Shown here one piece after another: positions 6,603 to 35,359 of a stretch of 52,079 nt of DNA. Both the position numbers and the translations under genes were made by a program. The notes beneath the pieces were generated by a model. It was not told the DNA's origin. It searched no databases and saw nothing but the letters and a program-made list of their open reading frames with translations. Source of the stretch: Clostridia bacterium (GTDB lineage: Bacteria; Bacillota; Clostridia; Oscillospirales; Acutalibacteraceae); assembly GCA_017531385.1 (NCBI GenBank), contig JAFXLD010000072.1, positions 1 to 52,079 of the forward strand, read 5' to 3'. Positions within the stretch are counted from its first letter, which is position 1. Every line of letters starts with the position of its first letter.

Positions 6603-6953
6603 TTAAGTAATCATAAGCCCAAAACTGACAGACAAAGCCTGATTGATTTTTGACATCTCATTTTCGTCAAGACTTCCCATTCTTTCACGAAGTCTTTGCT
6701 TGTCGAGAGTTCTCACCTGTTCAAGCAAAACAATGGAATCCTTTGCGAGTCCGCATTCATCAGCATGAACACTTATGTGTGTGGGAAGCTGTGTTTTGAA
6801 TTTTTTGCTTGTTATTGCAGCGGCAATCACGGTGGGGCTGTATTTGTTGCCTACGTCATTCTGAACTATAAGTACGGGTCTGACTCCTCCCTGTTCCGAT
6901 CCCACAACGGGACTTAAATCTGCATAATATATGTCGCCTCTTCTGACTTCCAT
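6603..6953 (-). CDS. mazF: MazF/PemK-type endoribonuclease toxin, no adjacent antitoxin
   Basis: 116 residues matching the NdoA/MazF family: RRGDIYYADLSPVVGSEQGG at the N-terminus with the conserved RGD and GSEQGG elements, RPVLIVQND, a TSKKFKTQLPTHI stretch, and LLEQVRTLDKQRL toward the C-terminus. Members are sequence-specific, ribosome-independent mRNA interferases. The start has an AGGAGC site about 9 bases upstream. Unusually, no antitoxin gene precedes it: the 180 bases upstream hold only the divergent prfA promoter. A SLOG-like gene follows after 19 bases. Either the antitoxin is elsewhere or this is a housekeeping-type MazF under other control. Confidence 0.88.
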   Translation of the reverse strand: MEVRRGDIYYADLSPVVGSEQGGVRPVLIVQNDVGNKYSPTVIAAAITSKKFKTQLPTHISVHADECGLAKDSIVLLEQVRTLDKQRLRERMGSLDENEMSKINQALSVSFGLMIT

Positions 6954-17046: not shown

Positions 17047-17052
17047 AAATCA

Positions 17053-17077
17053 CCGCTGTGGTAAAAAACCACAGCGG
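17053..17077. terminator. Bidirectional terminator at the edge of the phage module
   Basis: Perfect 9-bp arms CCGCTGTGG/CCACAGCGG around a 7-base A-rich loop, with A-rich left and T-rich right flanks. It serves the convergent transporter (plus) and the last phage gene (minus). Confidence 0.85.
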
Positions 17078-17091
17078 CTTTTTGTTTTAAA

Positions 17092-17544
17092 TTAGAGCTT
17101 TAAAGGTGAAGTATAATTTTCTTCACTCTTCAATGTTTCATTTATTGTAAATGTCACTTTAAGATAAAGCGATTCGGTATTTCTGATATATTCAATTTCA
17201 TCGGAAAGAATACCGCTGATTGAAAGAGATGTGTTGAATAAAAGCATCTGGACAATTGAATCAAACAAACTGAAACATCCTGTACCGCCCATATTTCTCG
17301 GAACATGGATTCCGATTGAAAAATCCGATTCGGCTATACGGCTGTCTGTGATAATCGTGCCTGTTTCATCAGTTGTGTTATCAAGCACTTTTATTGATTT
17401 TGAGCCGAAAACTACAACAGGTTTTTCAAGGGGAGTTGTTTTTGAATTTACGGGGAACTGTGTACAGAAAGAGCAGTCCGAAAAATCATTGAGATCCGAA
17501 AACCATTCGCAAAGCGTATCGGGAAGTTTTGAAATCAGTGACAT
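17092..17544 (-). CDS. Phage tail-terminator-like protein (tentative)
   Basis: 150 residues, last gene of the module. It starts 2 bases after the preceding gene's stop, with AAAGGAG lying across that stop. I see no catalytic motif; it has mixed strands and helices, with LFDSIVQMLLF near 100 and EIEYIRNTESLYLKVTFTINE toward the end, which resembles the beta-strand end of tail-completion/terminator proteins placed last in head-tail connector clusters. The assignment comes mainly from position. A tail tube gene should follow, but a terminator and a host transporter gene follow instead. Confidence 0.45.
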   Translation of the reverse strand: MSLISKLPDTLCEWFSDLNDFSDCSFCTQFPVNSKTTPLEKPVVVFGSKSIKVLDNTTDETGTIITDSRIAESDFSIGIHVPRNMGGTGCFSLFDSIVQMLLFNTSLSISGILSDEIEYIRNTESLYLKVTFTINETLKSEENYTSPLKL

Positions 17545-17546
17545 AT

Positions 17547-17915
17547 CTATCTCCTTTCGGTAAAGTGATTATAATAAGGATAATTGCCGTCGGTATGCTC
17601 TTTCAGGACAGCCCAGAGATAAAAAACTTCTTCTCCGTACCATATTTTTTCCCAGCGGTCAATGTGATATTTTTTTGTACCGTCGAAAAGATAGCCCTTG
17701 TCGCCGAGTTTGTCTATCTGCATTGACGCAGGTCCGAGAAACAGATAATACCCCGAATCATTTATACCGATTTCGGTGGGAGTTCCCTCAAGATACATCT
17801 TGTTTTTATATCGAAGAGCCTGAACAAAGCATTTTTTCTTTTCAATGTGGTTGCCGTCGGCGTCAATTGCGCACATTGATCTGCCGTAACGGTTCATAAT
17901 GCGTTCAATGTTCAT
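17547..17915 (-). CDS. Phage head-closure (stopper)-like protein
   Basis: 122 residues from the ATG at 17915 (MNIERIMNRYG); a longer frame to 18041 exists but overlaps the connector gene, while 17915 leaves one base after the connector stop and has CAGGACGG upstream. Short beta-rich protein with YYLFLGPA near 64, KGYLFDGTKKYHI near 82 and a C-terminal EEVFYLWAVLKEH, the pattern of small stopper proteins of Siphovirus-type heads. Identification is by size, order and pattern only. Confidence 0.5.
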   Translation of the reverse strand: MNIERIMNRYGRSMCAIDADGNHIEKKKCFVQALRYKNKMYLEGTPTEIGINDSGYYLFLGPASMQIDKLGDKGYLFDGTKKYHIDRWEKIWYGEEVFYLWAVLKEHTDGNYPYYNHFTERR

Positions 17916-17916
17916 T

Positions 17917-18270
17917 TTACACCGTCCTGAAAAGAAACTCGCTGTCAATGAGCAGATCGGCAGCATCTGCAAGAGCCTTTTGTCTGAAATTTTCTGCAAA
18001 AGCCGAGGCTGAATTTCCGTTTCTTGAAACGGTGATGTCACCTGCTTTTACGGAACCGATATCACCGTCAATAACATTCTGAACCATCAGATAATCGCAG
18101 TATGCTACCGATGCCGCCGCTGTCAGCAGCCGGATGTCCGACGCATTGACATCCGACCGCATTCTTCCGCATATTACGGCAGCGGCCTTTTCGCAAAAAG
18201 GCATAAGTGCATCATCGGTATCGCCTGTGATTTCACATACCTTTTCAAAAACCGTCTTACCGTCAAGCAT
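17917..18270 (-). CDS. Phage head-tail connector (gp6-like)
   Basis: 117 residues, mostly helical, with an N-terminal helical pair and a segment CGRMRSDVNASDIRLLTAAAS, as in HK97 gp6/SPP1 gp15-type connectors. Its ATG overlaps the capsid stop as TGATG, so it is translationally coupled to the major capsid gene. In related phages this protein forms the ring below the portal after DNA filling. Confidence 0.6.
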   Translation of the reverse strand: MLDGKTVFEKVCEITGDTDDALMPFCEKAAAVICGRMRSDVNASDIRLLTAAASVAYCDYLMVQNVIDGDIGSVKAGDITVSRNGNSASAFAENFRQKALADAADLLIDSEFLFRTV

Positions 18271-19277
18271 CAGACAGAGAGAACCTTTGAAGCGTCGGTG
18301 AAAATCTTTGAGAAACCTGCTGTACAGGTGATTGCGGCACGTTCAAGCTGTCTGTCGATAAGCTTGTCGTATTCGGTAATGATTGAACCGGCTTCAACCA
18401 TTTCGAGAGCACAGGTCTTGTCAAGACCGATGATAGTGTTCTCGGGAACTGCCGCAGACTTGATAAGAGATGAGCCGAGAGGTGTGATCATATTTCCTGT
18501 TGCATGGAAATTAAGACCTGCCGCAGCATCTCTGAACTCAGTGAGATTCAGAAGTTTCTGTGCCATATCAGGTGAAGCAATCATAGTTGAAAGCTCATAG
18601 GGTGAGAATTTATTCCAGAAAGAAACAAGGTCTGTATATGTAAGAGTGCCCTCATTTGCAGCTTTGATGATTTCGGCTGCATTGTTGTTGCCGTCACCGT
18701 TAATAAGTACGTTGATTGCGTCACCCAGCTGACATCTTGCAATATAAAGACCTATCTGACGGAGCGTTACGGTAAACAGGTCAAGATGCTGGAATCTGAT
18801 TGCTTCATAAGAAGAAACAAGCATTCTGCCTCTCTTGTGAAGAGTGACGAGATTTTCCTGAGTTCTGATTGTTGTCTGAGGAATTGAAGCGCCTTCCGCA
18901 ACAATTTTGAGTTCTTTATCATCTTCAGAGGGAACAGAAGTGATTGAACGGTAGTCAAGACCGTTGATAACAGTTCTTGAAGCTACGATGCCTGAAAGCA
19001 CGTCAGCTTCCTCCATGCCCTGTCTTACAGCTCTTGAAACGTATTCGGGGAAAAGTGCCGCTGAATCGGTTGTCTGGAAGAATTTATCAACCGTATCCGA
19101 TCCTCTGCCGCTTACTTTTATGTCAAATCTTTTAAGCTGACGCTGGAAAGCATCAAGATTTTCGAGAGACGTTCCTCTGTAATTTTCTGTGGGGTCAAGC
19201 TCTTCAAGACAGGCTGTGAAGCCCTTTGAAGAAGTATACATACCCTTTTCAAGTTTAATGTTGTTAAAATCAGCCAT
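18270..19277 (-). CDS. Phage major capsid protein
   Basis: 335 residues. The position between decoration and connector genes fits a major capsid protein. The N-terminal part (about 1-70) may be a scaffold-like or E-loop segment; the middle has AEGASIPQTTI near 128, KRGRMLVSSYEAIRF near 148, LGDAINVLINGDGNNNAAEI near 185 and ASPDMAQKLLNL near 237, a pattern common to HK97-fold shells (spine helix followed by a P-domain Asn/Asp-rich loop). AAAGGAAG precedes the start. The frame is intact with no frameshift, which suggests recent or continuing selection. Confidence 0.8.
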   Translation of the reverse strand: MADFNNIKLEKGMYTSSKGFTACLEELDPTENYRGTSLENLDAFQRQLKRFDIKVSGRGSDTVDKFFQTTDSAALFPEYVSRAVRQGMEEADVLSGIVASRTVINGLDYRSITSVPSEDDKELKIVAEGASIPQTTIRTQENLVTLHKRGRMLVSSYEAIRFQHLDLFTVTLRQIGLYIARCQLGDAINVLINGDGNNNAAEIIKAANEGTLTYTDLVSFWNKFSPYELSTMIASPDMAQKLLNLTEFRDAAAGLNFHATGNMITPLGSSLIKSAAVPENTIIGLDKTCALEMVEAGSIITEYDKLIDRQLERAAITCTAGFSKIFTDASKVLSV

Positions 19278-19298
19278 TTTTCATCTTCCTTTCTTTAA

Positions 19299-19640
19299 TC
19301 AGAGAATAATTCCTGCTGTTTTGTTTGCAGTGTCAACATCTGTTACAAGATATTCTCTTGCACCCTCTGCAACCATAACACCACCGTTACCGTCAGAAGC
19401 AAGAGAGCAGTAACCGACAGCAGGTGCCGTGCCTGTATAAGAGAGAGTCACATAGCCGTCAAGCTGAACGCAGGCATAGTCGTTTTTTACATTAACTGCC
19501 GTACCGATAAAAGCATCGCCTGATTCACAGGGAGCAACAGTAAGATTATCCGCCATTTTTACGGCATGGGAAACACAGACAACACCGTCTGTTTTAAATG
19601 TTGCAGTATTTTCGCCGTAGCCTTTCATTGAAATGTTCAT
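19299..19640 (-). CDS. Phage head decoration/stabilisation-like protein
   Basis: 113 residues from the ATG at 19640. An ATG at 19649 is in frame, but AAAGG directly abuts it and lies 9 bases from 19640, which favours the latter. It is all-beta and rich in Gly, Val and Ala (SGDAFIGTAVNVKNDYACVQLDG, then GYCSLASDGNGGVMV), typical of trimeric capsid decoration proteins encoded just before the capsid gene. Function is inferred from position and composition. Confidence 0.55.
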   Translation of the reverse strand: MNISMKGYGENTATFKTDGVVCVSHAVKMADNLTVAPCESGDAFIGTAVNVKNDYACVQLDGYVTLSYTGTAPAVGYCSLASDGNGGVMVAEGAREYLVTDVDTANKTAGIIL

Positions 19641-19660
19641 TTTTTTCATCCTTTCAAATT

Positions 19661-20659
19661 TTAAATTCTGAACTGTGAATTATCGTTAAAGCTTTTTGTT
19701 TTATCCGAACCGAATGTCCCGGTGTACACAGCCAGCTTTTCTGCTCTGTCACCGAGTGCCTTGCGAAGCATTACAACCTCATCACCCGTAAGTTTTTTAA
19801 GAATAGTACACATCATTTCGGAGTCTGCGTCGGGGAGAGTGAATGCAGAAAGAGCAATAATTTCTTTTTCAGCTTCATTTCTGCGATTTTTGCCAAGCTC
19901 GGCATCGGATTTCATATTTTCTATATATTCGCCGAAAGCCTTTATCTGAACGGGTGTAAGAGTGACGTTCCCTTTTGCATCAAGAGCCGATTTCATAATC
20001 TCTTCGGGGATTTCCGATGTGCATACAATTGTATCAGCACCTTTCTTTTTCATCGACTTTGCAACACCTGCATTACGCTGGGCAGGAACTGCCACAAAAG
20101 ACCATTCATAGGCATCCGTAGGATTTGTAAGAATAACGTGACAGGATTTATCACCCACAGTATGACAGCAGTCACGGCTTCTTATATCGTTACCGCAGAC
20201 GGAACAGATTTTGGAATCGACAGAACAGCTTATGCTCACTTCTTTTTTGATTCCGCCGTCAATTTCATTGATAAGCTCCTGATTTTTCTCTGTACGGAGC
20301 ATATAGCACCATGCTTTAAGGCAGGTATATGCTTCGCCTGCAAGAGTAGTTTTTGATCCGTCACGGACAAGCTCAGTTTTGTAAATTCTTGCAGTCTGGT
20401 CGGAGCTTTTCATGCTGTGGTCAAAGATTCCCGTAACACCCACAAACATACTTTTGAGTGTTTCGAGAGCTTCGGTGGAAAATCTTTCATTGTCACGGTC
20501 AATTTCGTTATCGCAGAGGATAACGGAAAATGTATAGATTTTTTCTGCATCGGGAGTTTTTCTCGCAAAACGTGAAATGAGCTCAAGGGCTTCTTCGTCT
20601 GGTGTTCCCGTTACGGGACATACTTCCGATGCGTTTTTGATAATTTTCATTTCGTTCAT
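19661..20659 (-). CDS. Phage prohead protease with scaffold-like C-terminus
   Basis: 332 residues. The first 200 fit an S78-type prohead protease: FSVILCDNEIDRDNERFS near 44-61, IFDHSMKSSDQTARIY with a candidate catalytic His near 79, and KKEVSISCSVDS near 139-150 with a candidate Ser. A four-Cys stretch (CSVCGNDIRSRDCC) after it is unusual and could bind metal. From about 205 to the end the protein is charged and helical, as expected of a fused scaffolding domain that is cleaved away during maturation. AAAGGAG precedes the start. Confidence 0.65.
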   Translation of the reverse strand: MNEMKIIKNASEVCPVTGTPDEEALELISRFARKTPDAEKIYTFSVILCDNEIDRDNERFSTEALETLKSMFVGVTGIFDHSMKSSDQTARIYKTELVRDGSKTTLAGEAYTCLKAWCYMLRTEKNQELINEIDGGIKKEVSISCSVDSKICSVCGNDIRSRDCCHTVGDKSCHVILTNPTDAYEWSFVAVPAQRNAGVAKSMKKKGADTIVCTSEIPEEIMKSALDAKGNVTLTPVQIKAFGEYIENMKSDAELGKNRRNEAEKEIIALSAFTLPDADSEMMCTILKKLTGDEVVMLRKALGDRAEKLAVYTGTFGSDKTKSFNDNSQFRI

Positions 20660-21820
20660 TTATTTCTCCTTTAAAGCTGATGCTTCTGCCATATACTTTT
20701 CTGCCTGAGCATTGTAATAAAGTGCCTTTGCCTGCTCGGTTTCGTCGAGAAGTGAGATATCATCCCATTCAACATTGCAATCGCAAGAAAAACCGTTCAT
20801 GCGCAGAAACATCCTGCAGATTTTTTCAATTACGGGAGTAAGGATACGTCTGTAATGCCAGAGCTCACTTGTGAGCAGATCTGTCTGTTGCTGTGCCATT
20901 CTTTCACTTGTTGACCAGTTAAGACCGAGCATAAAAGGCGGAAGACCTGTTTTTGCAACAATCTGCTCCAAAAGCTGTCTTACGGGAATTTCGCTGTCGA
21001 GAATCTGATTATCTGCACCGATAACCCTGATGTCAACATCGCCCACGGCAATAAAATCCTTGACTTCGTTTCCTGATTTCATTGCATCGCTCCAGCCTCT
21101 TGCAATCTGCATTGCACGTTCTTTTGCATACGCCTTGTCCATTGCATCATTCTGAGGCTTGTAGGTAACTGCATAACGGAGATTCCCCACGCGTTCCCAG
21201 TTTGTGCCGATTGTTTCAAAAATCTGCAGAAGTACGGAGCTTACAAAAGGCAGACCTCTGAGAATGGAATTGCCGTGAAGATTTCCGGCTTCGGGATCAA
21301 GCACCGACAGAATAACACGCTGAGGATTTTTAACGGGAACGGTTTTTCCGCCTTCATATGTGCATATATCCACATGCAAGGGGTTGTTTTTGTTGCGTTC
21401 AAGAACAATGTTGTCAATTTCACCGTTATAAAGTGAAAAAGTGCGGTTATCCTGATTCAGAACCATTTCACCTACGGCTGTACCGTAGGTCAGAAGCTGA
21501 TCGAGAAATAAATCGACAAACGAATCCATTCCGCAGAGATTTCCGCCCACATTAACATTTTTCAGAAAATCATCAATCTGTTTCTGTGCATTTTTATCTG
21601 AACATTTTACGGAAAAACCTCCCGTAAGTCTTACGATTTTTCCGATGGCACCGTCTATCACCGGTACACTCTTTCTCAAGTTTCCGTAAAGCTGTTTTTC
21701 GGCAGAAAAGCTTACGGAATCTGTACCGAATGACGAAAAACGGTTGCTGCGAATCTGGGGAACACCTGTTACGGCAACCTCGGAGCTTTCTTTTTTCTGT
21801 TTTCTTTCAAAAAGTTTCAT
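20660..21820 (-). CDS. Phage portal protein
   Basis: 386 residues, compact for a portal but within range. Recognisable elements are the N-terminal basic tail, VPVIDGAIGKIVRLTGGF near 52, LTYGTAVGEMVL near 112, GNLHGNSILRGLPFVSSVL near 182, and GLPPFMLGLNWSTSERMAQQQTDLLTSE (two parts) near 300-325, all typical of HK97/SPP1-type portals. It forms the dodecameric channel for DNA entry. It is placed between the large terminase and the protease, as usual. AAAGGAC lies just before the ATG. Confidence 0.8.
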   Translation of the reverse strand: MKLFERKQKKESSEVAVTGVPQIRSNRFSSFGTDSVSFSAEKQLYGNLRKSVPVIDGAIGKIVRLTGGFSVKCSDKNAQKQIDDFLKNVNVGGNLCGMDSFVDLFLDQLLTYGTAVGEMVLNQDNRTFSLYNGEIDNIVLERNKNNPLHVDICTYEGGKTVPVKNPQRVILSVLDPEAGNLHGNSILRGLPFVSSVLLQIFETIGTNWERVGNLRYAVTYKPQNDAMDKAYAKERAMQIARGWSDAMKSGNEVKDFIAVGDVDIRVIGADNQILDSEIPVRQLLEQIVAKTGLPPFMLGLNWSTSERMAQQQTDLLTSELWHYRRILTPVIEKICRMFLRMNGFSCDCNVEWDDISLLDETEQAKALYYNAQAEKYMAEASALKEK

Positions 21821-21822
21821 TT

Positions 21823-23076
21823 TTATGTCCTTTCTGTAACTATGACCATGAATCCGTCGTCTGCTCTGCCGTAAAGCACCGTTGAGACGAAATATCTCAT
21901 ATCATCCATGGCATGGTCATGTTCTTTTCTCGGAGTATCTTTTGAAGAACTGCTTTCCCATCGGTACAGACCGAATTCACGGATTATATCACTGCAATGT
22001 GCACAGATTTTTATTCTGTTGCCTTTGAGTGCTTCCGAAACTCTTCTGATACCGTCATTCACATCGTTTTTTGCAGGAATGACTTTGAATCTGCCGTGTC
22101 TTCTGATACATTCCATAAAGCTTACGGCAGACGGGTCTGCAATAACAGCTTCGATTGAACGCCCCTTTGCAAGTTCTTCGAGCATACTGTAATACTCCTC
22201 GTCTGTTTTCTGATTTCCCTCACGCTTTGACGACCAGTAGCATTCATCAATTCTGTACCATATGCCGTCACAAAGTCCCCACAGTCCCAATGAAAACGGA
22301 TTCACTGTTCCGTAGTCACAGGAAATATAGAATTTTTCGCATTCGGGAACACCCTGATAAACATTGTCTTTGCCGTTAAAAAACGGATAGACAAGTCCTT
22401 CGGCTGCGACCCATTTACCCTCAACAAAGCGTTCAAAAAACGCACCTGAATAAAGTGAACGGTATCGCTCGATAATTGATTCTGATAATGACGGATTGTC
22501 TTCCATAACAAAATGGAGATAAAGGCAGTTCTTGTCGTTTGCTTTTTCAATCCACTCCTTGTTGAACCAATGAAGCGGATTTTCGGGATTGCAGTTGAAC
22601 CAGAGCTTTGACCCTGTTACGGAACATCTTGCCACAGCCTGTTCAACAAATGAACGTGGCATGAGTGCCACTTCGTCAAGAAGAACACCGCCGAGAGTAA
22701 GTCCCTGAATCAGAGAAGCCGAAGATTCATCTCTTCCGCCGAAAAGATAAAATCTGTTTTTTGTGTTTCCGAATTCAATTTCAACAAGTCCCTTTGAAAT
22801 TTTTTCACGGCATGTGAAGCCTAAGTCGGTAAGAACAGGCAGAAGCGGGGTTATTACATTGCGTCTGAGAGATGTTACGGTTTTACCGCAGAGCGCAAAT
22901 GAAGTGTCATCAAAACTACCCATAGCCCATGCTATGAAAGATATGGACATGCACATTGTTTTTCCGCTTCTTACAGCGCCGTCACAGATAATGCCGTCAA
23001 AATTTCCGGTTTCACTGTTTTTGCACCACCAGGTAAGAACTTTCAGCTGTTTGGGTGAAAATGTTTCAAATTTCAC
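21823..23076 (-). CDS. Phage terminase large subunit
   Basis: 417 residues with both terminase domains. ATPase: Walker A-type DGAVRSGKTMCMS near 32-44 and Walker B GVLLDEVALMPR near 130. Nuclease: SCDYGTVNPFSLGLWG near 251, VIADPSAVSF near 313 and DHAMDDMRYFVS near 391, whose acidic residues would bind metal. It starts at GTG, overlapping the small-subunit stop as GTGA. It would cut and pump DNA into the prohead. All key residues appear kept, so the motor could still be active. Confidence 0.9.
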   Translation of the reverse strand: MKFETFSPKQLKVLTWWCKNSETGNFDGIICDGAVRSGKTMCMSISFIAWAMGSFDDTSFALCGKTVTSLRRNVITPLLPVLTDLGFTCREKISKGLVEIEFGNTKNRFYLFGGRDESSASLIQGLTLGGVLLDEVALMPRSFVEQAVARCSVTGSKLWFNCNPENPLHWFNKEWIEKANDKNCLYLHFVMEDNPSLSESIIERYRSLYSGAFFERFVEGKWVAAEGLVYPFFNGKDNVYQGVPECEKFYISCDYGTVNPFSLGLWGLCDGIWYRIDECYWSSKREGNQKTDEEYYSMLEELAKGRSIEAVIADPSAVSFMECIRRHGRFKVIPAKNDVNDGIRRVSEALKGNRIKICAHCSDIIREFGLYRWESSSSKDTPRKEHDHAMDDMRYFVSTVLYGRADDGFMVIVTERT

Positions 23077-23549
23077 TTCACACCACCACTGAGTGATGCA
23101 GCGCTTTTTTCAAGTGCTTCGTAAAAAGGTATTGCATTGTTTTCCTGAGTTGTTTCGGAAATTTCTCCCAGTTTTTCAAGTGCTTTGATACGGTCAAAAA
23201 ACTTGATTTCAAGACCTCCGCCTTTCGGTCTTTTTATTTCTGCCACATTAAAAAGGTCAAGCTCTTCAATTTCAAGATTCTGATAATCTTCGCTCAGCAG
23301 TAGCTTCACGGCATCAGATGAAGATGCAAAAGCAATTCTGTGAAGACCTGCGCTGACTTCCTCCGAAGTGAAAGCTGTTTCTTTTTTCAGTTTTTCAACA
23401 GTTTCCCTTACAATAGGTTTTGCCAGAAGCTTTCTCGATGTTATCTCTGGACAGACTTTATATCCGGCTCTGAATGCCGCTTCTCTGGAGTTTCTGCAGG
23501 AAACATAAAGGCGACAGAAAAGCTCTTCACGACCGGTTAATTTTTTCAT
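23073..23549 (-). CDS. Phage terminase small subunit
   Basis: 158 residues from the ATG at 23549; a GTG at 23552 lies too close to the GAGGTG site. The N-terminal KLTGREELFCRLYVSCRNSREAA (two parts) and AAFRAGYKVCPEITSRKLLA pattern is the helix-turn-helix of terminase small subunits that recognise the packaging site. It overlaps the large-subunit start. A short upstream reading frame overlaps its ATG as TGATG. Confidence 0.85.
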   Translation of the reverse strand: MKKLTGREELFCRLYVSCRNSREAAFRAGYKVCPEITSRKLLAKPIVRETVEKLKKETAFTSEEVSAGLHRIAFASSSDAVKLLLSEDYQNLEIEELDLFNVAEIKRPKGGGLEIKFFDRIKALEKLGEISETTQENNAIPFYEALEKSAASLSGGVK

Positions 23550-23632
23550 CACATCACCTCTTTTGTATTTATGCCTTCCATAAATAGTCTCAACTCCCTG
23601 TTTTGACCCGCTTTTTCCGGGTCAAATTTCAA
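23549..23632 (-). CDS. Possible short leader frame or gene remnant before the small terminase
   Basis: A 27-codon frame from a TTG at 23632 (reading to LFMEGINTKEVM) ends in a TGA that overlaps the terminase ATG as TGATG. It contains the 23602-23626 palindrome. No strong ribosome site precedes the TTG, and an internal ATG at about 23581 would give ten codons. It may be a coupled leader peptide or the tail end of a lost upstream phage gene. Confidence 0.25.
   Translation of the reverse strand: MKFDPEKAGQNRELRLFMEGINTKEVM
23602..23626. promoter_or_regulatory. Palindrome upstream of the small terminase gene
   Basis: Perfect 9-bp arms TTTGACCCG/CGGGTCAAA around a 7-base loop. It may be a protein-binding operator or a packaging-site element, since small terminases often bind near their own gene. 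It lacks a T-run on the minus strand, so it is not a clear terminator. Confidence 0.35.
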
Positions 23633-23721
23633 AAAAGCCTGATTTGTTTACAAAATGTTCATAAATGAGTGCAATTTTAAAAAATCTGCACAAATATTTA
23701 AAGGAAAATAAGATAAAACTA

Positions 23722-23783: not shown

Positions 23784-24008
23784 ATGCCGGAATTCACTTA
23801 TGAAATCGTAAAAACATTCGGAGTTATCTCAGAAGGCGCAGGCGGCTGGGCAAAAGAGCTTAACCTCATCAGTTGGAACGGTAAAGAACCTAAGTACGAC
23901 ATCCGTGACTGGGGTCCCGATCATGAAAAAATGGGCAAGGGTATCACTCTTACTGCAAACGATGCAAAGGCTCTTAAGGAACTTCTTTGCGGAATCGATT
24001 TTGAATAA
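23784..24008 (+). CDS. YdbC/PC4-like single-strand nucleic-acid-binding protein
   Basis: 74 residues, full length for the YdbC family. The diagnostic GWAKELNLISWNGKEPKYDIRDWGPDHEKMGKGIT region (in parts, residues about 21-55) matches this PC4-like fold, known from a Lactococcus protein that binds single-stranded DNA. CTGGAGGAATT gives a strong ribosome site. It has its own promoter and faces away from the phage module, so it is probably a host gene. Cellular role unknown; DNA repair or transcription support is inference. Confidence 0.8.
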   Translation: MPEFTYEIVKTFGVISEGAGGWAKELNLISWNGKEPKYDIRDWGPDHEKMGKGITLTANDAKALKELLCGIDFE

Positions 24009-26782: not shown

Positions 26783-29700
26783 ATGAAAACGAAAATGAGA
26801 CTTAAATCAAGTCTTGCATTACTTTTAACTTTAGTAATGCTGTTTTCCGTCATGTCTCCCATGACAGCTTTTGCGGCAGGCATAACTGTTGACCTTAATA
26901 ATGTCGGTTCCAACACAAAGCTTACCTCAAAAACAGATTATAATGTAGTCCCCGGCGTAACAGAATCTCACCTTGTTACACATGACAAGGATGGTTCAAA
27001 TCAGGTTCAGAGCTATGTTCTCGAAATTGATCTGAGCAATCCCAACGTAGGTATTCTTGCCAGCTATCAGAACTACATGAACAATCTTGCTCCTACTCCC
27101 ACATGGGGTATGCAGACTGTTCGTGACCAGGCTGTTGCTGCAGAAAACTACTATAAAAATGTACAGCATCAGGAACATTTTGAAATTGTCGGCGGTATCA
27201 ACTGTGACTTCTTCAATATGCAGTCGGGTGCACCTCTCGGTTCTCTTGTTATGAACGGTGTTAAATACAACGAGACAACCTCAGGCGGTAACAGCTCCTA
27301 CTTTGCAATTCTTGACGACGGCACAGCAGTTATCGGCAGCGGTGAAATCCCTGAGAATGCAAAGGAAGTTGTCGGCGGCAGCAATATGCTTGTTCAGGAT
27401 GGAATGATCAATCCTAACCTCAAGGCAAATAAAGATAAGTTCCCCAGAACATCTATCGGTATCAAGGCAGACGGTACTGTTGTTTTCGTTACAGCAGACG
27501 GTCGTCAGGCTCCCGCATCATGCGGTCAGACATTTGAAGAGAATGCACAGCAGATGCTTTCACTCGGTTGTGTAACAGCTCTCCAGGTTGACGGCGGCGG
27601 TTCAGCAACTCTCGTTTCACAGCACGAAGGTGAAACAAATCTTGCAGTAAGAAACAGCCCTTCAGACGGTACAGAAAGAACTGTTTCAACAGCATTGCTT
27701 ATTTACTCCAATGCTACTCCTGACGGAGAATTTGACCATGCAAATGTTACACCTAACAATACAATTTACACACCCGGCTCCACTGTAGATTTTGATGCAT
27801 CAGGTGTTGACGGCGCAGGTGCAGCGGTTGCTCTTCCTGAAGACGGTGCGTTCGCTCTTGCAGATGAAGCAGCAGGTACAATTGATCCTGCAACAGGCGT
27901 ATTTACAGCAGCAGAAGGCTTCACCGGCGATGTTACAGTCAACTATATGGTCGGCGAAGCAGTAAAAGGCTCAACATCAGTTTCTATTGTTGTTCCTGAT
28001 ACTCTTTTTGTTGCAAGTACAGAACAGGCAGTCGGCCCCGGTGTTGAAACTGACTTCGGTATCGTTGCAAAGTATCAGGACAGAGATGTCATTATGAAAG
28101 CAGACGATATTGAATGGACAATCGTTGATAGTTCAACAGGTGCAGAAGGTGCAGACCTTAATGGTGTTGCAGGTACTTTTGACGGTCTCTTCTTCACAGG
28201 TGCAGAAGAAAACGCTTACAATGCAAAGGTTACTGCAAAACTTCTTTGTAATGAAGAACTTGCACCCCTTGAACTTACAGTTTTCATCGGTTCAAAGCAG
28301 ATTTCCCTTTTCGACTTTGAATATGTAACAGGTGAAGAAAACAAGGATGCTCCTAACTATGTTCCCTCTTTCTCAGTTCCCGTTAACGGTGCAAACTGGC
28401 TTACAGCAAACGGATATAACGGTTACAGAGGCAGAGCATGGGAACTTCTTGAAGAAGGACATAAACTCTTTATGTGGCCCAATGCAGCAGTCAACAACGA
28501 TGGTGTTTTCACAGATATCGTTTCTGCTGAAGACGGTGAGCCTACCCGTTTCGGCGACAAGTCACTGAGAATCACATTCGACTATTCATCATATAACTAT
28601 GCTTCAAATGCAAACTTCTATCTCCGTACAACAACAGCTCCTATGGCATTTGAAGGTTCACCCACAGCAATGGGTGTATGGGTATATGCACCCGAAGGCA
28701 CAACCAACTATCATCTCTATCTCAACTGTGCAAGCGGTATGACAGTAGAAGCCATTGAAAAGGGTGAAGCTCATACTCAGCAGTCATATCAGTGTATTAC
28801 AACATCTGAAGTTTTAGGCACAGAAACAGGCGGTATCAACTGGACAGGCTGGAAGTACCTCGAATTTGACCTCACAGGTACAAAGGGTTATACAGGTACA
28901 TCAAATGTAGGCGGTTCTTATGAGCCTTACGGTCTCAACCCCGGTGCAGGTATCTTCTGGATTTCATATCAGCCCGCAAGCATGGGTACTCCCACAGCTG
29001 ATACAATCTACATTGATGATATTACTCTTATCTACGGTGCTAATACATCAGATACACATAACCCCGAAATCAACTATATCGGCGACCTTGCAGAAGAGAT
29101 AGTTGACGGCGAAACAGTTTACACATCAAATGCAAATACTTTCAAGGCATCATATGCTGATGTTCAGGATAAGTATATGACAGGCATCAATGATGAAGCT
29201 ACAAAGATGTACATTGACGGTGTTGATGTTACAGATAAGTGCTACATCGATGCAGGTAATGACGAAATCTATTTCTATGATGCAGTTCTTCCTGACGGTG
29301 AACATGTTATCGAAATCGAAGTAGCTGACGTATTCGGCAACAAGACAACTCAGATGAGATACTTCACAATCGACAGCGGTGCTGAAGATACAGAAGTTTC
29401 ATTTGTTGCGGCAAACACTCCCGTTCTCGGTGAAGATTTCATTCTTGATATCGTTACCAACAATGCGGCAGATATTGCAGCAGCTGATATCGAAATCAAG
29501 GTTCTTTCAGCTTTCACAAGCTACTGGAGAAATGTTACTGTTGAAGCAGCTCCCGGCTTTAAGCTTGACGGTGAAGCTGTTTATAACTCAATCAGAGATA
29601 CTCTCACATTCAGAGTAGTAAAAGACGAAGTTGCAACAGTTGCAGAAGGCAATGATAAGATTGCTTCCGTTATCACAAAGGTTCCCGCAGATACTCCCGA

Positions 29701-32700
29701 AAATCTTGAAGTAACTCACAGAGTTTCAAAGGGTGCTATCACTTATTTAAGCGGTGAATCAGAAGCTGTTACAGCTTTCTCAGGTAAAATCGTTTCTACC
29801 TGTGAAGCTCCTCTTGTGTTCAATGCTGACATAATGATTGTAGGTTCTGCAGGTGGCAACATCTATGTAACAGACAAGGAAGGCAAGTCTGTTGAAGGTG
29901 CAGAAGTTTCCTATGCAATCAAGGAAGGCAATGACTACGGTGCTTACACGGTTCTCGGCTCAACAGATGCAGAAGGCAAAATCTTCACAGATATCTTTGT
30001 TGATGCAGTAAAGGAATATGCTCTTACAGCAACAAAGCAGGTTGAAGTTACTCCTGCAGACCCTGAAAACGGTGTTGACGCTGTTTATAATACTTTCCGT
30101 TCATTCACATTCAAAGCCCAGAGTTACGAAGCAAAGGGTGACGCAACAGGTATTCCCACTTATGTAAAACTTAATGCAGCAAAGAATCCTGAAACAGAAC
30201 AGAGTATTTCCTGGATGTCAAATCCTCTTGCAACAGAAGATAAGGCAGTTGTATACTATACAGAAAAATCAGACTATGATACACCCGAAAAGATATCATG
30301 GACTGTTTCATACGGTACTTCATATCTTTCAGAAATGTCATCATCCGGCTCATATCTTACAAACTATGTTGTAAGACTCAACAGTGTTACTCTCACAGAG
30401 CTCAAGCCTGATACAGAATATGTTTTCTATGTCGGTGACGGCAAAACAAGAAGTGATATCAGAAGCTTCTCAACAACCAGAGCAGGAGAAAACACAAACT
30501 TCTTCATTATCGGTGACGTTCAATCCGAAGATACAACTGATGTTGAAAACATCAAGAACGCTCTTGCATCAACAAATGTTGATTACTCCTTTGGTCTTCA
30601 GACCGGTGACCTTGTTGACAACGGCGGCGCATTCAAGTATTGGGATGCAGTAGGTTCAACATTCAGCAGTGATATTCTCGGAAACACAGATATTGTTCAT
30701 GTTCTCGGTAACCATGAATACTACGGTGATCTTACAGGTATTAACTCAGCTCACTACTTCGATATTCCCGGCGACAGAACAGACAAGGCTCCCGATGCAT
30801 ACTCCGTAGAGTACGGTAATGTTTACGTTGCAGTATTCAATTATGTTGGTATGACAGGATACAAGCAGGCTGCAAAATGGCTTATTGAAGATGCAAAAGC
30901 TTCAACAGCTACATGGAAGATTCTTGTTATGCATCAGCCTCCCTTCTATACAAATCCCGGCGGTGCAACAAAGGGCCTTCGTGAATTCATTACAGAAGTA
31001 GCAGATACAGCAGATCTTGACTTTGTTCTTTCAGGTCATGACCACTCCTACGCAAGAACTCAGCCTCTTACAGCAGGTAAACCTGATGCAGAAAACGGTA
31101 CAGTTTATATCATCTGCGGTTCAACAGGTGAAAAGAGCTACGACATCGTTAACGAACCTGCACATTATTTCGCGAACCTCAATGAGGATTACGAAGCAGT
31201 TTACATGACTGTTAAGACAACAGACACAACATTTGAGATTTCAACATACAATTGTGACCGTGCAACAGGTGAATCAACACTTATTGATTCTTACACAGCC
31301 ACAAAGGAAGTAACATGTACAGAAAACGGTCATTCCTATGTAAACGACGGTGAATATCTCGTTTGCTCCGTATGCGGATACGCAATCCCCACAGCAGGCT
31401 ACACAGGACTTGTAACAGATAAAGCAACAGGCCTTATCATGCAGCTTACAGATGGTGTTGCAACTGCAAATCAGTGGGCAGACATCAACGGTGATATCTA
31501 CTACTTCAATGAAAACGGCATCCCCGTTACAAGATTTGAAGACATCGGTGATTATGAATACGAATTCGATAAAGCAGGTAAGCTTGTTGAGTTTGCAATT
31601 GTTGAAAACGGTGCTCTTGTTGCAAACAAGTGGATTGAAAAGGATGGTGGTGTTTACCATCTCGGTCCTGACGGTCTTCTTGATACAGGCGATACAAAGA
31701 TCGGCGATTACACATATCCGTTAGATGAAAACGGTAAGCTTACAAAGTATGCGTTCGTTCTTGAAGACGGTACACTTGCAACCAACAGATGGATCGGTCA
31801 GCAGTACTATCTCGGTGCTGACGGTCTTCCCTCAACAGGTAAAGTTACAATAGGCAAGTACACATATACCTTTGATGATGACGGTAATTTTGTAAAGGGT
31901 GCTCTTGCAAAAGAAGGCTTCTATACTTATTACTACATCGCAGGTGAAAAACAGCGTGGTTGGCATATGATCGACGGTTACTGGTACTATTTTGATAGAC
32001 AGACCGGTTACGGTATGGCAACACTCGAAAATGACGGTAAGATCTCAATTGATAAAGTCAAGGACGGAAAATACCCGATCGAAAGTACAGATTCACTTCT
32101 TCTCTTTGCATTCGATAATCAGGGTAGACTCGTAGAAGGTGCACTTACTGAAACTGCAAACGGTCTTGTTTACTACTGGGGCAATAATGAAAGACTTACA
32201 GGATGGCAGTACGTTTCAGGTGATATTTACTATTTCGGTAACGATTTCTATGCAGTAACAGGCGAACAGACAATTGATGAGCAAGCTTATACATTCTCTG
32301 CTGACGGTAAGCTTCAGCTCAAAGATGAAAACTTCGCGCTTAAGGGATTGTTCTACTACTTCGATGAAGACGGTAAGATTATGAAGAATCATATCGAAGA
32401 TCATCCTTATGTCAAGGTAATTGACGAAGCTGTTGAACCTCAGATCGGCGTAACAGGTCTTACAGAGGGTGAACACTGTGAAACTTGCGACAAGATCACG
32501 GTTGCTCAGGAAGAAATTCCTGCTCTTAAAGATCCCAACAAGCCCGAACCTCCCACAGACGATCCCGAACCGCCTGTAAATCCTTCTTACAGACTCGGTA
32601 ATCTTGACGGAGACGATGAAATTACAGCAGCTGATGCAAGACTTGCACTCAGAATCGCAGCAAAACTTGACCCTGTAACAGATTCAAGAATGTTTGTTAT

Positions 32701-32788
32701 TGCCGATGTAAATGTTGATGGTGTCATCACTTCAGCAGACGCAAGAAAGATTCTCAGAGTTGCAGCAAAGCTTGACAAAAGCTTCTGA
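26783..32788 (+). CDS. Secreted phosphodiester glycosidase / metallophosphatase with wall-binding-like repeats and dockerin
   Basis: 2001 residues, many domains. Signal peptide about 1-32. Residues about 60-308: NAGPA/DUF2233-type phosphodiester glycosidase (GGINCDFFNMQSGAPLGS, then ALQVDGGGSATLV near 263-275). About 325-410: Ig-like. About 505-750: jelly-roll, possible carbohydrate-binding module. About 755-1100: further beta domains. About 1110-1233: purple-acid-phosphatase N-terminal domain. About 1240-1435: metallophosphoesterase with GDVQ, TGDLVDNGG, GNHEYY, MHQPP and GHDHSY metal motifs all intact. About 1510-1875: repeated YYF/DENGKL units like cell-wall-binding repeats. Residues 1937-2001: type I dockerin, two calcium loops (NLDGDDEITAADAR and DVNVDGVITSADAR). 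It should remove a sugar from a phosphodiester and then the phosphate; the substrate is unknown. No cohesin partner in the window. Confidence 0.85.
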   Translation: MKTKMRLKSSLALLLTLVMLFSVMSPMTAFAAGITVDLNNVGSNTKLTSKTDYNVVPGVTESHLVTHDKDGSNQVQSYVLEIDLSNPNVGILASYQNYMNNLAPTPTWGMQTVRDQAVAAENYYKNVQHQEHFEIVGGINCDFFNMQSGAPLGSLVMNGVKYNETTSGGNSSYFAILDDGTAVIGSGEIPENAKEVVGGSNMLVQDGMINPNLKANKDKFPRTSIGIKADGTVVFVTADGRQAPASCGQTFEENAQQMLSLGCVTALQVDGGGSATLVSQHEGETNLAVRNSPSDGTERTVSTALLIYSNATPDGEFDHANVTPNNTIYTPGSTVDFDASGVDGAGAAVALPEDGAFALADEAAGTIDPATGVFTAAEGFTGDVTVNYMVGEAVKGSTSVSIVVPDTLFVASTEQAVGPGVETDFGIVAKYQDRDVIMKADDIEWTIVDSSTGAEGADLNGVAGTFDGLFFTGAEENAYNAKVTAKLLCNEELAPLELTVFIGSKQISLFDFEYVTGEENKDAPNYVPSFSVPVNGANWLTANGYNGYRGRAWELLEEGHKLFMWPNAAVNNDGVFTDIVSAEDGEPTRFGDKSLRITFDYSSYNYASNANFYLRTTTAPMAFEGSPTAMGVWVYAPEGTTNYHLYLNCASGMTVEAIEKGEAHTQQSYQCITTSEVLGTETGGINWTGWKYLEFDLTGTKGYTGTSNVGGSYEPYGLNPGAGIFWISYQPASMGTPTADTIYIDDITLIYGANTSDTHNPEINYIGDLAEEIVDGETVYTSNANTFKASYADVQDKYMTGINDEATKMYIDGVDVTDKCYIDAGNDEIYFYDAVLPDGEHVIEIEVADVFGNKTTQMRYFTIDSGAEDTEVSFVAANTPVLGEDFILDIVTNNAADIAAADIEIKVLSAFTSYWRNVTVEAAPGFKLDGEAVYNSIRDTLTFRVVKDEVATVAEGNDKIASVITKVPADTPENLEVTHRVSKGAITYLSGESEAVTAFSGKIVSTCEAPLVFNADIMIVGSAGGNIYVTDKEGKSVEGAEVSYAIKEGNDYGAYTVLGSTDAEGKIFTDIFVDAVKEYALTATKQVEVTPADPENGVDAVYNTFRSFTFKAQSYEAKGDATGIPTYVKLNAAKNPETEQSISWMSNPLATEDKAVVYYTEKSDYDTPEKISWTVSYGTSYLSEMSSSGSYLTNYVVRLNSVTLTELKPDTEYVFYVGDGKTRSDIRSFSTTRAGENTNFFIIGDVQSEDTTDVENIKNALASTNVDYSFGLQTGDLVDNGGAFKYWDAVGSTFSSDILGNTDIVHVLGNHEYYGDLTGINSAHYFDIPGDRTDKAPDAYSVEYGNVYVAVFNYVGMTGYKQAAKWLIEDAKASTATWKILVMHQPPFYTNPGGATKGLREFITEVADTADLDFVLSGHDHSYARTQPLTAGKPDAENGTVYIICGSTGEKSYDIVNEPAHYFANLNEDYEAVYMTVKTTDTTFEISTYNCDRATGESTLIDSYTATKEVTCTENGHSYVNDGEYLVCSVCGYAIPTAGYTGLVTDKATGLIMQLTDGVATANQWADINGDIYYFNENGIPVTRFEDIGDYEYEFDKAGKLVEFAIVENGALVANKWIEKDGGVYHLGPDGLLDTGDTKIGDYTYPLDENGKLTKYAFVLEDGTLATNRWIGQQYYLGADGLPSTGKVTIGKYTYTFDDDGNFVKGALAKEGFYTYYYIAGEKQRGWHMIDGYWYYFDRQTGYGMATLENDGKISIDKVKDGKYPIESTDSLLLFAFDNQGRLVEGALTETANGLVYYWGNNERLTGWQYVSGDIYYFGNDFYAVTGEQTIDEQAYTFSADGKLQLKDENFALKGLFYYFDEDGKIMKNHIEDHPYVKVIDEAVEPQIGVTGLTEGEHCETCDKITVAQEEIPALKDPNKPEPPTDDPEPPVNPSYRLGNLDGDDEITAADARLALRIAAKLDPVTDSRMFVIADVNVDGVITSADARKILRVAAKLDKSF

Positions 32789-32819
32789 TAAAATCTGACG
32801 CTTCGGAAAATTTAAACAA

Positions 32820-32848
32820 TTGACTTTCACCCCCTTCTCCTATATAAT
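32820..32848 (+). promoter_or_regulatory. Sigma-A promoter with its -10 in a hairpin loop
   Basis: TTGACT (32820-32825), a 17-base spacer and perfect TATAAT (32843-32848). The -10 hexamer is the loop of the hairpin at 32831-32861, and the spacer is its left arm. It would drive the first CotH gene. Confidence 0.7.
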
Positions 32849-32861
32849 GTAGGAGAGGGGG
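32831..32861 (+). terminator. Terminator of the 2001-residue gene, overlapping the next promoter
   Basis: Arms CCCCTTCTCCTA (32831-32842) and TAGGAGAGGGGG (32850-32861), one G-T pair, followed by ATGTTTTTC. Confidence 0.75.
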
Positions 32862-32908
32862 ATGTTTTTCTGCTTCTGATATTTTTCCCCGGAAAAAGGA
32901 GGATTAGT

Positions 32909-35251
32909 ATGAAGACTTCAAAGATTTTATCAATAATCATTTTGATTTTTTCTCTTGCAATGATAGGTGCTTTTTCAGCATCAGCAAAAGTTGCAGAAAA
33001 AACAACATTTGACAGTTTTTATTATATTGCCAATTCGGAAAATGAAAATACTGTGGTTTATCCGCAGAAAGCAGCCGACGGAAGTGCTTATATCTTTTTA
33101 CCCTCATCTGCTGATCTTTCAGAACTGATTCTTAATTCTGAGAGCGAATATTCATATATAACCGTATCTGCAGATAAGTCTGTAAAAACAGATTTCGGAG
33201 AAAAAATTGATATCCTTTCTCTTTTTGATGATTACAAATCAGAAAACGGCGAATATACGGTCAGAATAACATGTGTGCCCGAAGCCGGAACAGTTCTGCA
33301 GCAAAAAATAACCGTCATGAAATCCGAATCTGTAAAATCCCTGTATCTTGCCAGTGAGGATCCCGTCAAAGAGGGGAGAGAATGGGTAGATACTTCAAAG
33401 TCAAATGAGGCAAAGGGTGAAATGGTATTTCTTAATGCTGACGGAACGGTTTTTCATGAAGATGAACTTACGGAGCTTAAAGCACGAGGAAATTCTACTT
33501 TTACTGACTTTGTAAAAAAGGCATACCAGATAAAAATCGGCAAAAAAACGGCTCTTATCGGTGATGAAAAAAATGCAAATAAAAAATGGGTGCTTCTTGC
33601 AAATGCTGCCGACATTACATTGATTCACAATCAGCTTACTTTTGCACTTGCACAAGACATAGGACTTCCGTATACAGTAGAAAGTGAACCTGTGGATCTT
33701 TATTATGACGGAGAATACAGAGGAACTTATCTTCTTGCAGAAAAGGTTGAAGTTGACAAAACAAGAGTTGATATCGGGGACCTTGACGGGCTTATTGAAG
33801 ATATAAACGAAGATATTGATGCATACGAAAATCCTGTTGTGGTTACAAAAACAACTGCAAGCAAAGGTGAAATAAACGCAAAAACAGATAGTGCAGGATC
33901 ATATAAGTATGTGCAAGGTCTTATTGAGCCTGAACTCGAAAACGGGACAACACATCATGCTTATCTTCTTGAACTTGACTTTATTTACAGATATCCCAAT
34001 GAACAATCCGGATTTGTAACAAACCGGGGTCAGGCTGTAGTCACAAAAAATCCCGAATATCTGACAAAAGAAACAGGAGCTTTTATCAGTCAGTATTTCC
34101 AGGACTTTGAGGATGCGGTTTTCAGCCCTGACGGATACAACAAAGCAACGGGTAAGTATTATTATGAATACTGTGACATTGATTCTCTTGTGAACATTTA
34201 TCTCATAAATGAATTTACAAAAAACTATGACAGTTTCCGTTCATCAGCATTTTTCTATCTTCCCGAAAATGAAGATATAATGTACGCAGGCCCTGTATGG
34301 GATTTTGATATCTGTTACGGCACAGGTTACAACGGAAACAGAGAGATTTCCGCAAATCCCGAGAATTTCTTCGCTACGACAAAATATATGCTCGGTACTC
34401 TTATAACAATTGAAAGCTTCCGTGATGCAGTCAAAGCAAAGCTTGATAAATCAGACGGAGTTTTTTACAAAGCAGTTCAGAATATGCTTGGTGAAGCCGG
34501 ATATATAAAAACTTTTTCAGACGCAGTTTTCAGTTCACAGAAAATGAACTACAAACTCTGGAATATCAATGATAAAGTCATAACAACACTTCTCTGTACT
34601 GATGAAGTAACATATGAAAATTCAATCAGTTTTCTTGATTATTTCGTTTCAAACAGAATCGAATGGCTTTCTGATATCACATCCGAATGGAATGGAGAAA
34701 AGTATTCCGTCCCCACAGATGCATCATTCCCTCTGACATACAGATATCATGCCCACATCGAAAAAACTCCTGCGAAAAATGCAACCTGTACAACAGGCGG
34801 AAATACAGAGGGACTGGTATGTAACGATTGCGGAACTGTTTTTAAACAGTATAAAGAATTGGCACCGAAAGGACATTCATGGAAAGACGCAACCTGTAAC
34901 AGTCCTAAAAAATGCAGTGGTTGCGGATTGACCGAAGGTGAAGCTCTTACGCATGAGTATACTCCTGATCCGGGTGACAGCAGAAATTCCGAAACTTGCA
35001 TTGTTTACAAATGTAATCATTGTAAAAAAGTGATGCTTATCACAGTTCAGCCCAAACCAAAGTATGAAAAAGGCGATATCAACATGGACAGTAAAGTCAA
35101 TGCGGCAGATGCAAGACTTGCCCTGAGAATTTCAGCATCGCTTGAAAAGCTTACGGATGAAATTCTTGAAATCGGCGATATGACCGGTGATAACAAACTT
35201 ACAGCTGCAGATGCAAGAAAAATATTAAGAAAATCAGCAAAACTTGAATAA
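32909..35251 (+). CDS. Secreted CotH-type kinase with Cys-rich linker and dockerin
   Basis: 780 residues. Signal peptide about 1-26. An N-terminal beta domain with FLPSSADLSELIL is shared with the next gene. The CotH core (about 150-580) has ELKARGNSTF, KKAYQIKI, KWVLLANAADITLIHNQL, PVDLYYDGEYRGTYLLAEKVEV and the acidic WDFDICYG motif. CotH proteins are atypical extracellular/spore-coat protein kinases. Residues about 615-715 hold CXXC pairs (CNDCG, CSGCG, CNHCK) that may bind metal. Residues about 722-780 are a type I dockerin with two loops (DINMDSKVNAADAR, DMTGDNKLTAADAR). AAAGGAGG site. Kinase activity is inference from the family; the substrate is unknown. Confidence 0.85.
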   Translation: MKTSKILSIIILIFSLAMIGAFSASAKVAEKTTFDSFYYIANSENENTVVYPQKAADGSAYIFLPSSADLSELILNSESEYSYITVSADKSVKTDFGEKIDILSLFDDYKSENGEYTVRITCVPEAGTVLQQKITVMKSESVKSLYLASEDPVKEGREWVDTSKSNEAKGEMVFLNADGTVFHEDELTELKARGNSTFTDFVKKAYQIKIGKKTALIGDEKNANKKWVLLANAADITLIHNQLTFALAQDIGLPYTVESEPVDLYYDGEYRGTYLLAEKVEVDKTRVDIGDLDGLIEDINEDIDAYENPVVVTKTTASKGEINAKTDSAGSYKYVQGLIEPELENGTTHHAYLLELDFIYRYPNEQSGFVTNRGQAVVTKNPEYLTKETGAFISQYFQDFEDAVFSPDGYNKATGKYYYEYCDIDSLVNIYLINEFTKNYDSFRSSAFFYLPENEDIMYAGPVWDFDICYGTGYNGNREISANPENFFATTKYMLGTLITIESFRDAVKAKLDKSDGVFYKAVQNMLGEAGYIKTFSDAVFSSQKMNYKLWNINDKVITTLLCTDEVTYENSISFLDYFVSNRIEWLSDITSEWNGEKYSVPTDASFPLTYRYHAHIEKTPAKNATCTTGGNTEGLVCNDCGTVFKQYKELAPKGHSWKDATCNSPKKCSGCGLTEGEALTHEYTPDPGDSRNSETCIVYKCNHCKKVMLITVQPKPKYEKGDINMDSKVNAADARLALRISASLEKLTDEILEIGDMTGDNKLTAADARKILRKSAKLE

Positions 35252-35260
35252 TGATTTCTG

Positions 35261-35284
35261 CCCCTTGGAGAAAAATCCGAGGGG
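35261..35284 (+). terminator. Terminator after the first CotH gene
   Basis: Arms CCCCTTGGA/TCCGAGGGG with a 6-base A-rich loop and then TGTTTTTTT. Confidence 0.85.
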
Positions 35285-35297
35285 TGTTTTTTTGGTA

Positions 35298-35326
35298 TTG
35301 CAAAATTTTTTATTTTATGGTAAAAT
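35298..35326 (+). promoter_or_regulatory. Promoter candidate for the second CotH gene
   Basis: TTGCAA (35298-35303), a 17-base spacer and TAAAAT (35321-35326). Confidence 0.55.
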
Positions 35327-35359
35327 TTTATTAATTTATGAATATCGGAGGATATAAAA

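Follow-up and report, generated by a model that had tools for sequence, protein, structure and literature searches.

A phage-derived head and packaging operon without tail genes, probably vertically inherited and gene-transfer-agent-like, in a genus of Acutalibacteraceae

RcGTA and the other gene transfer agents (GTAs) of Alphaproteobacteria are inherited vertically, evolve under purifying selection and consist of structural genes only; to our knowledge, few GTAs are known outside this class. PBSX of Bacillus subtilis, a defective phage with GTA-like behavior, packages 13.4-kb pieces of dispersed host DNA, and FpGTA of Faecalibacterium is most likely podovirus-like, forms particles without identifiable tails and, in one strain, has a second operon with baseplate, fibre and lysis genes about 125 kb from its head operon (both as described in the accessible part of PMC12946183). 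Here, we describe a nine-gene operon of phage origin in a Clostridia bacterium of the family Acutalibacteraceae, order Oscillospirales (assembly GCA_017531385.1). It lies on contig JAFXLD010000072.1 (C35 in our numbering), whose 52,079 nucleotides are called the window below; this 52-kb window is an entire contig, one of the 107 that make up a 2.47-Mb genome estimated to be 83% complete. The operon is probably a vertically inherited, domesticated system of the PBSX type, GTA-like and, in this genus, left with head and packaging functions only.

The nine adjacent and intact open reading frames (ORFs) occupy positions 17092-23552 on the minus strand and form a block running from the small terminase subunit to the neck proteins (Table 1). 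Neighboring genes overlap or are separated by at most 21 bp, and the arrangement is therefore operon-like. A first-pass annotation, made from the letters alone, had read this stretch as nine contiguous open genes for an HK97-type head, with the terminase motifs kept and with no tail, integrase or lysis genes, and the profile matches obtained for most of the nine proteins bear this out. In particular, the Walker A residues (G33, R36, S37, G38 and K39), the Walker B residues (D134 and E135) and the nuclease residues (D254, D314, D387, D391 and D392) of TerL are invariant in an alignment of 12 sequences. No lysis gene is present in the operon, no integrase, recombinase, tail or phage replication family was matched among the 29 other proteins of the window that were scanned (the scan left out one 85-aa ORF), and nine tail profiles, from sheath to fibre, built from the loci of relatives, had no match in the window. 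As in a GTA, phage-derived head and packaging genes stand here without replication or integration genes of their own.

All nine genes are under purifying selection. Between the window and its nearest congener (G008), the pair quoted throughout, the ratio of nonsynonymous to synonymous substitution rates (dN/dS) ranges from 0.056 to 0.234, being lowest in TerL (0.056) and reaching 0.083 in the protease, 0.095 in the portal, 0.11 in both TerS and capsid, 0.12 in both the stopper (gene 8) and the terminator (gene 9), 0.17 in the adaptor and 0.23 in the decoration protein; the capsid and terminase values, which the annotation had proposed to compute, are not near 1. Host genes of the same pair give 0.045 (rpoB), 0.078 (GH31), 0.063 (MFS) and 0.014 (PC4). 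Over all usable congener pairs (those with saturated dS yield no ratio) the gene means extend from 0.06 (TerL, one pair) to 0.44 (gene 8, four pairs).

The operon also follows its hosts. In a sample of 98 genomes, the capsid gene was found in all 11 genomes of the genus, once in each, in 28 of the 49 remaining family members and in three of the 38 genomes from other families of the order, always without internal stops; in an order-wide sample 71 of 394 genomes were capsid-positive, 69 with one match and two with two. All nine genes are open in eight of the 11 congeneric genomes and, in seven of these eight, the window included, the module adjoins a gene for a PC4-type protein, G003 being the exception; the shorter blocks of the congeners G002 and G010 gave no PC4 match, nor did the contig of G009, where the locus is cut by the contig end. 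Path distances of the module were compared with those of rpoB, whose frame was chosen by homology, and the two are correlated across the family (Spearman 0.80, 32 genomes) as well as with one genome per genus (0.76, 25 genomes), with 0 of 2000 permutations reaching either value; 19 of 40 splits are common to the module and rpoB trees. Vertical inheritance (the correlation within the genus, given below, is not significant), purifying selection and a content of structural genes only are features shared with RcGTA and the other alphaproteobacterial GTAs. Those, unlike the module, are tailed, belong to other gene families and have been shown to transfer genes.

These data bear on the three options that the first-pass annotation had left side by side, a domesticated particle that packages DNA, a stripped prophage and a head-only satellite, of which the first fits best. 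An operon without tail, integrase, replication and lysis genes is what a degenerating prophage remnant might leave behind, but the nine genes are open in 8 of 11 congeneric genomes, with dN/dS of 0.06-0.23 against the nearest congener, and the module is retained across the family. Decay is rejected by the open frames, from which the annotation had already argued against it, and by the dN/dS values; ordinary decay is very unlikely, and a prophage remnant deserves hardly any credence. A freshly stripped prophage is disfavored because the module is present in all 11 genomes of the genus, is under purifying selection and agrees with the host tree family-wide. The situation named as fatal to the idea of an intact head module, tails in close relatives with this copy alone truncated, was not encountered in the genus, where Baseplate_J matches occur in one of the 11 genomes and on contigs other than the module's. 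A comparison of relatives and their flanks, also proposed, recovered the nine-gene block in eight genomes with its PC4 neighbor in seven; in other genera the head block carries tail genes.

The gene content is also like the head half of the capsid-forming phage-inducible chromosomal islands, satellites with their own head and packaging genes and no tail genes, and the module might be such an element, borrowing the tail of a helper. Unlike those islands, it has no recognised integrase or satellite regulator and co-diverges with the host family; furthermore, it is present in one copy per genome. A simple scan of the 20 largest of the 58 repeat families around the module revealed no convincing att-like direct repeat. 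As no integrase was found among the scanned window proteins, no att-like repeat was seen and the same PC4 neighbor recurs in seven of the eight nine-gene genomes, a mobile satellite is disfavored, and we consider it highly improbable.

The operon was mapped in the window and in 228 loci with profiles built from these loci. After deduplication, the 169 loci with TerL, portal and capsid on one strand comprised 39 head-only loci, 53 with a baseplate and no sheath, 30 with baseplate and sheath, 15 with a partial baseplate and 32 with a short flank (less than 2.5 kb of downstream sequence). In many relatives the neck genes are followed by genes for tube, LysM protein, hub, spike-like, gp25-like, baseplate J, gp48-like and fibre-like proteins, and some tailed relatives possess a contractile sheath in addition (sheath, LysM, hub, gp25, J and gp48 were named through Pfam or PHROGs; tube, spike and fibre by position); no tape measure gene was recognised in the tailed relatives. 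The gap between the tube and LysM genes measures 0.5-1.8 kb in 34 of 36 sheath-type loci and at most 351 nt in 51 loci without sheath; by eye, the frames in this gap (L213, L171 and L205) overlap and resemble a frameshift-made pair of tail-assembly chaperones. One relative from IMG/VR (L251) carries, in addition, genes for a CHAP endolysin and for a protein of holin size. A phage-like head region in another genome (L271, G370), with a protease related to that of the module and weak capsid and decoration matches, may belong to a free phage related to the domesticated family. Among the matches listed, at least 555 of 599 candidate GTDB genome stretches carry the family, and those relatives that bear a name belong to the gut Clostridia: Clostridia bacterium, Oscillospiraceae bacterium, Ruminococcus sp., Candidatus Gallacutalibacter and Candidatus Fimenecus. 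IMG/VR holds 350 relatives, the best 80 of which are mostly 4-14 kb long.

On a tree of TerL, portal and capsid (FastTree only, 128 rows, with warnings about long branches and composition), 122 loci carried a state (39 head-only, 53 and 30 with a baseplate without and with sheath); of the other 47 loci, six were drawn without state and 41 were omitted. The genus of the window is placed in one head-only clade. The head-only label requires seven changes, of which starred branches force at least five, whereas shuffled labels need 33.2 on average, and the difference between tailed and head-only loci is deep on the tree, several changes being needed. Since the tail genes of distant members share the same order, tail loss is the simplest direction, and tails have probably been lost repeatedly while heads were kept intact. 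A long last neck gene, of 272-390 codons between stops, is found in 24 of the 39 head-only loci, and the long proteins inspected (L042, L043, L098, L102, L126, L128 and L169; about 270-310 aa) have a C-terminal domain like the fibre-like protein of tailed relatives; the model of the fused protein of L102 has two folded parts and a low-confidence linker. Gene 9 of the window, unlike that of many sister lineages, is short (150 aa) and without this fibre-like domain. A broader reading, possible though doubtful in our judgment, would see in the whole family a vertically inherited system whose functional product is a tail-less DNA-filled head, the tail having been discarded several times independently and replaced, in many lineages, by the neck-fused fibre-like domain, so that DNA would pass to the recipient at its surface and would not be injected.

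The tail of the described tailed GTAs was found neither with the nine tail profiles in the window nor, in ten of the 11 genomes of the genus, with the linked baseplate J profile (sheath, siphophage tail and fibre were not searched genome-wide); the eleventh, G001, has Baseplate_J in four copies at sites away from the contig of the module. Strong baseplate matches (E below 1e-50) were obtained in 17 of the 98 sampled genomes, and each of the 17 is capsid-positive. It could be that the system is split, heads being made here and tails by a second, unrecognised locus or by a resident phage, so that the particle would be tailed. The second operon of FpGTA, about 125 kb away in one strain, offers a precedent (PMC12946183, accessible part). 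The neck proteins that normally receive the tail are conserved, as their dN/dS values indicate. Furthermore, the genome of the window (G000) has on contig C26 (L380, L381) a separate prophage-like region with another HK97-type capsid and, by eye, integrase, portal, 785-aa tape-measure-like and amidase genes, which could lend tails. Against this stands the absence of the head-linked baseplate protein from ten of the 11 genomes, within the search just described, and a split system appears rather unlikely.

The likeness to PBSX is seen in TerL of the window, which scores above the cut-off of the PBSX-family profile TIGR01547, and in the tailed relatives, whose sheath, tube, LysM, hub, gp25-like, J, gp48-like and fibre-like genes stand in what we take to be the PBSX order; the proteases of two relatives may be XkdF-like, with matches just below the cut-off. 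Unlike PBSX, the operon in the genus of the window has no tail genes, no regulator, integrase or lysis gene was recognised beside the window operon, and the tailed relatives are without a recognised tape measure; of the contractile tail and lysis genes expected of a PBSX-type system, none is found in the window operon, and sheath, tube and baseplate are found in relatives. The module and FpGTA are both packaging operons that lie on the chromosomes of gut Oscillospirales and have no replication genes, and the head operon of FpGTA, too, is apart from baseplate and lysis genes (PMC12946183, accessible part). The two were compared through a genus of another family (g165), which is Faecalibacterium-like only tentatively, the best matches to a MAM protein query having 50-53% identity in three genomes. 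Among its head clusters whose proteins were scanned (L315-L319), a P22-like portal and a Prp protease were matched in L316 and a phrog_1357 capsid in L316 and L317; these podovirus-like packaging clusters are possibly the published FpGTA. TerL of the window has no match in four genomes of g165, taken as a tentative proxy and not as FpGTA sequence, and this genus is not among the 71 capsid-positive genomes. Together with the description of FpGTA, the proxy suggests that the module and FpGTA are separate lineages; their identity, tested indirectly in this way, is not supported. Among open-access papers, we found none that describes this operon family in its title or in the opening of its abstract.

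Table 1. Features of the head and packaging operon and its immediate surroundings in the window.
Feature	Position	Strand	Basis and remarks
Neck protein, tail-terminator-like (gene 9), 150 aa	17092..17544	-	Position; AlphaFold model pLDDT 79.6 (moderate confidence)
Neck protein, head-closure/stopper-like (gene 8)	17547..17945	-	Position and family conservation (alignment) only
Head-tail adaptor (neck), 117 aa	17917..18270	-	phrog_541 E=1.7e-4
Major capsid protein, HK97 type	18270..19277	-	PF25209 E=7e-17; phrog_3922 E=2e-102; TIGR01554 E=6e-6, just below cut-off
Head decoration-like protein, 116 aa	19299..19649	-	phrog_4588 (virion structural) E=2e-23
Head maturation protease/scaffold, XkdF-like, 332 aa	19661..20659	-	phrog_16951 E=2.5e-90; function inferred through relatives
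Portal protein	20660..21820	-	phrog_30703 E=1.5e-133
Terminase large subunit TerL, PBSX family	21823..23076	-	PF03237 E=5e-14; TIGR01547 E=1e-56, 192.9 bits, cut-off 105
Terminase small subunit TerS	23073..23552	-	PF03592 E=8e-17
Direct repeat TATGAAC-N4-TGTAAACA, 11-bp period	23645..23663	-	About 90 bp upstream of TerS; possible regulator box
PC4-type gene, divergent neighbor	23784..24008	+	PF02229 E=2e-11; probably host; marker of conserved site
Intrinsic-terminator-like hairpin at operon end	17052..17078	both	11 pairs, 7 GC, T-rich tail; consensus match only

As for the individual proteins, the sole strong match of the 332-aa protease/scaffold-like protein is a PHROG of unknown function (phrog_16951); two of its five scanned relatives match the XkdF serine protease family PF14550 (E=1e-4 and 5e-4, just under the cut-off), the window protein itself does not, and H81 and S142 are kept in at least 93% of 169 sequences. 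Genes 8 and 9 matched no named family among the Pfam, PHROG and TIGRFAM profiles, and searches of PDB profiles gave no significant relative of the gene 9 neck protein, the capsid or the portal, the best phage match of gene 9 being the "Terminator protein gp14" with a non-significant E=0.58. For gene 8, the start at 17945 is more likely than that of the longest ORF, at 18041.

Taken at its most economical, this gene content would probably yield tail-less DNA-filled heads. A regulator acting at the upstream box would switch the operon on in some cells, in which portal, protease and capsid would assemble a procapsid. The terminase would then fill it with cellular DNA, for the most part probably random pieces of the host genome, as in PBSX, because no replication gene is linked to the module, and adaptor, stopper and terminator would seal the head. 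The filled heads would leave the cell upon lysis by a lysin encoded elsewhere, and, as they have no tail, their DNA would have to be delivered in some other way, for instance by being released at the surface of the recipient and taken up by competence proteins.

The box itself recurs in the genus as the pattern TRTGAAY-N4-TGTRAACA, with 12 exact matches in ten of the 11 genomes and none for a reversed-pattern control; eight lie just upstream of TerS, one (G002) directly before the protease gene and three elsewhere, and weaker versions of it are seen in head-only sister genera. Repeats of seven bases that recur every 11 bp are typical of OmpR/PhoB-family regulators, and our guess, by analogy, is that such a regulator may act here. 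No regulator gene was recognised beside the window operon, no LexA-like pattern was matched in eight loci of the genus, and leader hairpins upstream of TerS are not conserved within it. One of the extra matches (L375:8049, in G009) stands upstream of what, by eye, looks like a spoIIAA-spoIIAB-sigF operon, which could be chance or a link to sporulation.

Several observations weigh against a vertically inherited packaging operon of this kind. At the locus of the most divergent congeners, G002 and G010 (capsid identity 59-61%), the genes for protease, decoration protein, capsid and neck are present and those for TerS, TerL and portal are missing (short blocks at L055:3769-4733 and L377:15130-18715), and none of the three was found in about 60 kb around the G010 locus; packaging may, given these blocks, not be the sole selected function. 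Some more distant congener pairs have higher dN/dS, up to 0.59 (gene 8), still below 1. The correlation with rpoB is lower over all 43 genomes (rho 0.57, 0 of 2000 permutations) and is not significant within the genus (rho 0.25, n=8, 427 of 2000). The seven changes on the tree are changes and not losses as such, with no direction given. No lysis gene is linked to the operon (lysis and competence genes were not searched genus-wide). It might be, instead, that the head operon is kept for a purpose other than transfer, as an intracellular or released container used, for example, in stress or sporulation. Blocks that keep capsid and neck genes and have no terminase or portal at the locus would suit such a container, as would the box at the spoIIA-like operon, if it is not chance. 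Set against this, TerL is the most constrained of the nine proteins and its key catalytic residues are kept, which argues for DNA packaging in the lineage of the window, and a container appears quite improbable. A domesticated, GTA-like packaging operon remains the probable reading.

Host genes surround the module. The PC4-type gene and a GH31 glycosidase gene flank the module on one side and MFS transporters on the other, and the terminator-like hairpin adjoins an MFS transporter gene, in agreement with the annotation, which had placed the end of the module at a terminator beside host transporters. The G+C content in 1-kb bins across the module is 0.38-0.45, like that of the flanks, and a scan against Rfam gave nothing credible. 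Elsewhere in the window are a gene for a PemK/MazF-like toxin of a toxin-antitoxin family (6603-6953, minus strand; PF02452 E=5e-36) and, at 26783-37231, a gene for a protein of 2001 aa that has phosphodiester glycosidase, metallophosphatase and choline-binding repeats and whose end, by eye, looks dockerin-like, and after it two adjacent CotH-type kinase genes.

GTA-like DNA packaging has been seen in gut Oscillospirales, and the accessible part of the report names an operon only for Faecalibacterium and not for Gemmiger, Ruminococcus callidus or Onthomonas (PMC12946183, 2026). The operon family described here, present in 71 of 394 genomes of the order, is a candidate source of such packaging. 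Repeated loss of the tail with the head kept, if true, would make the question of a "minimal gene-transfer particle" directly testable, and many short predicted "proviruses", such as the relatives in IMG/VR, would then be host operons.

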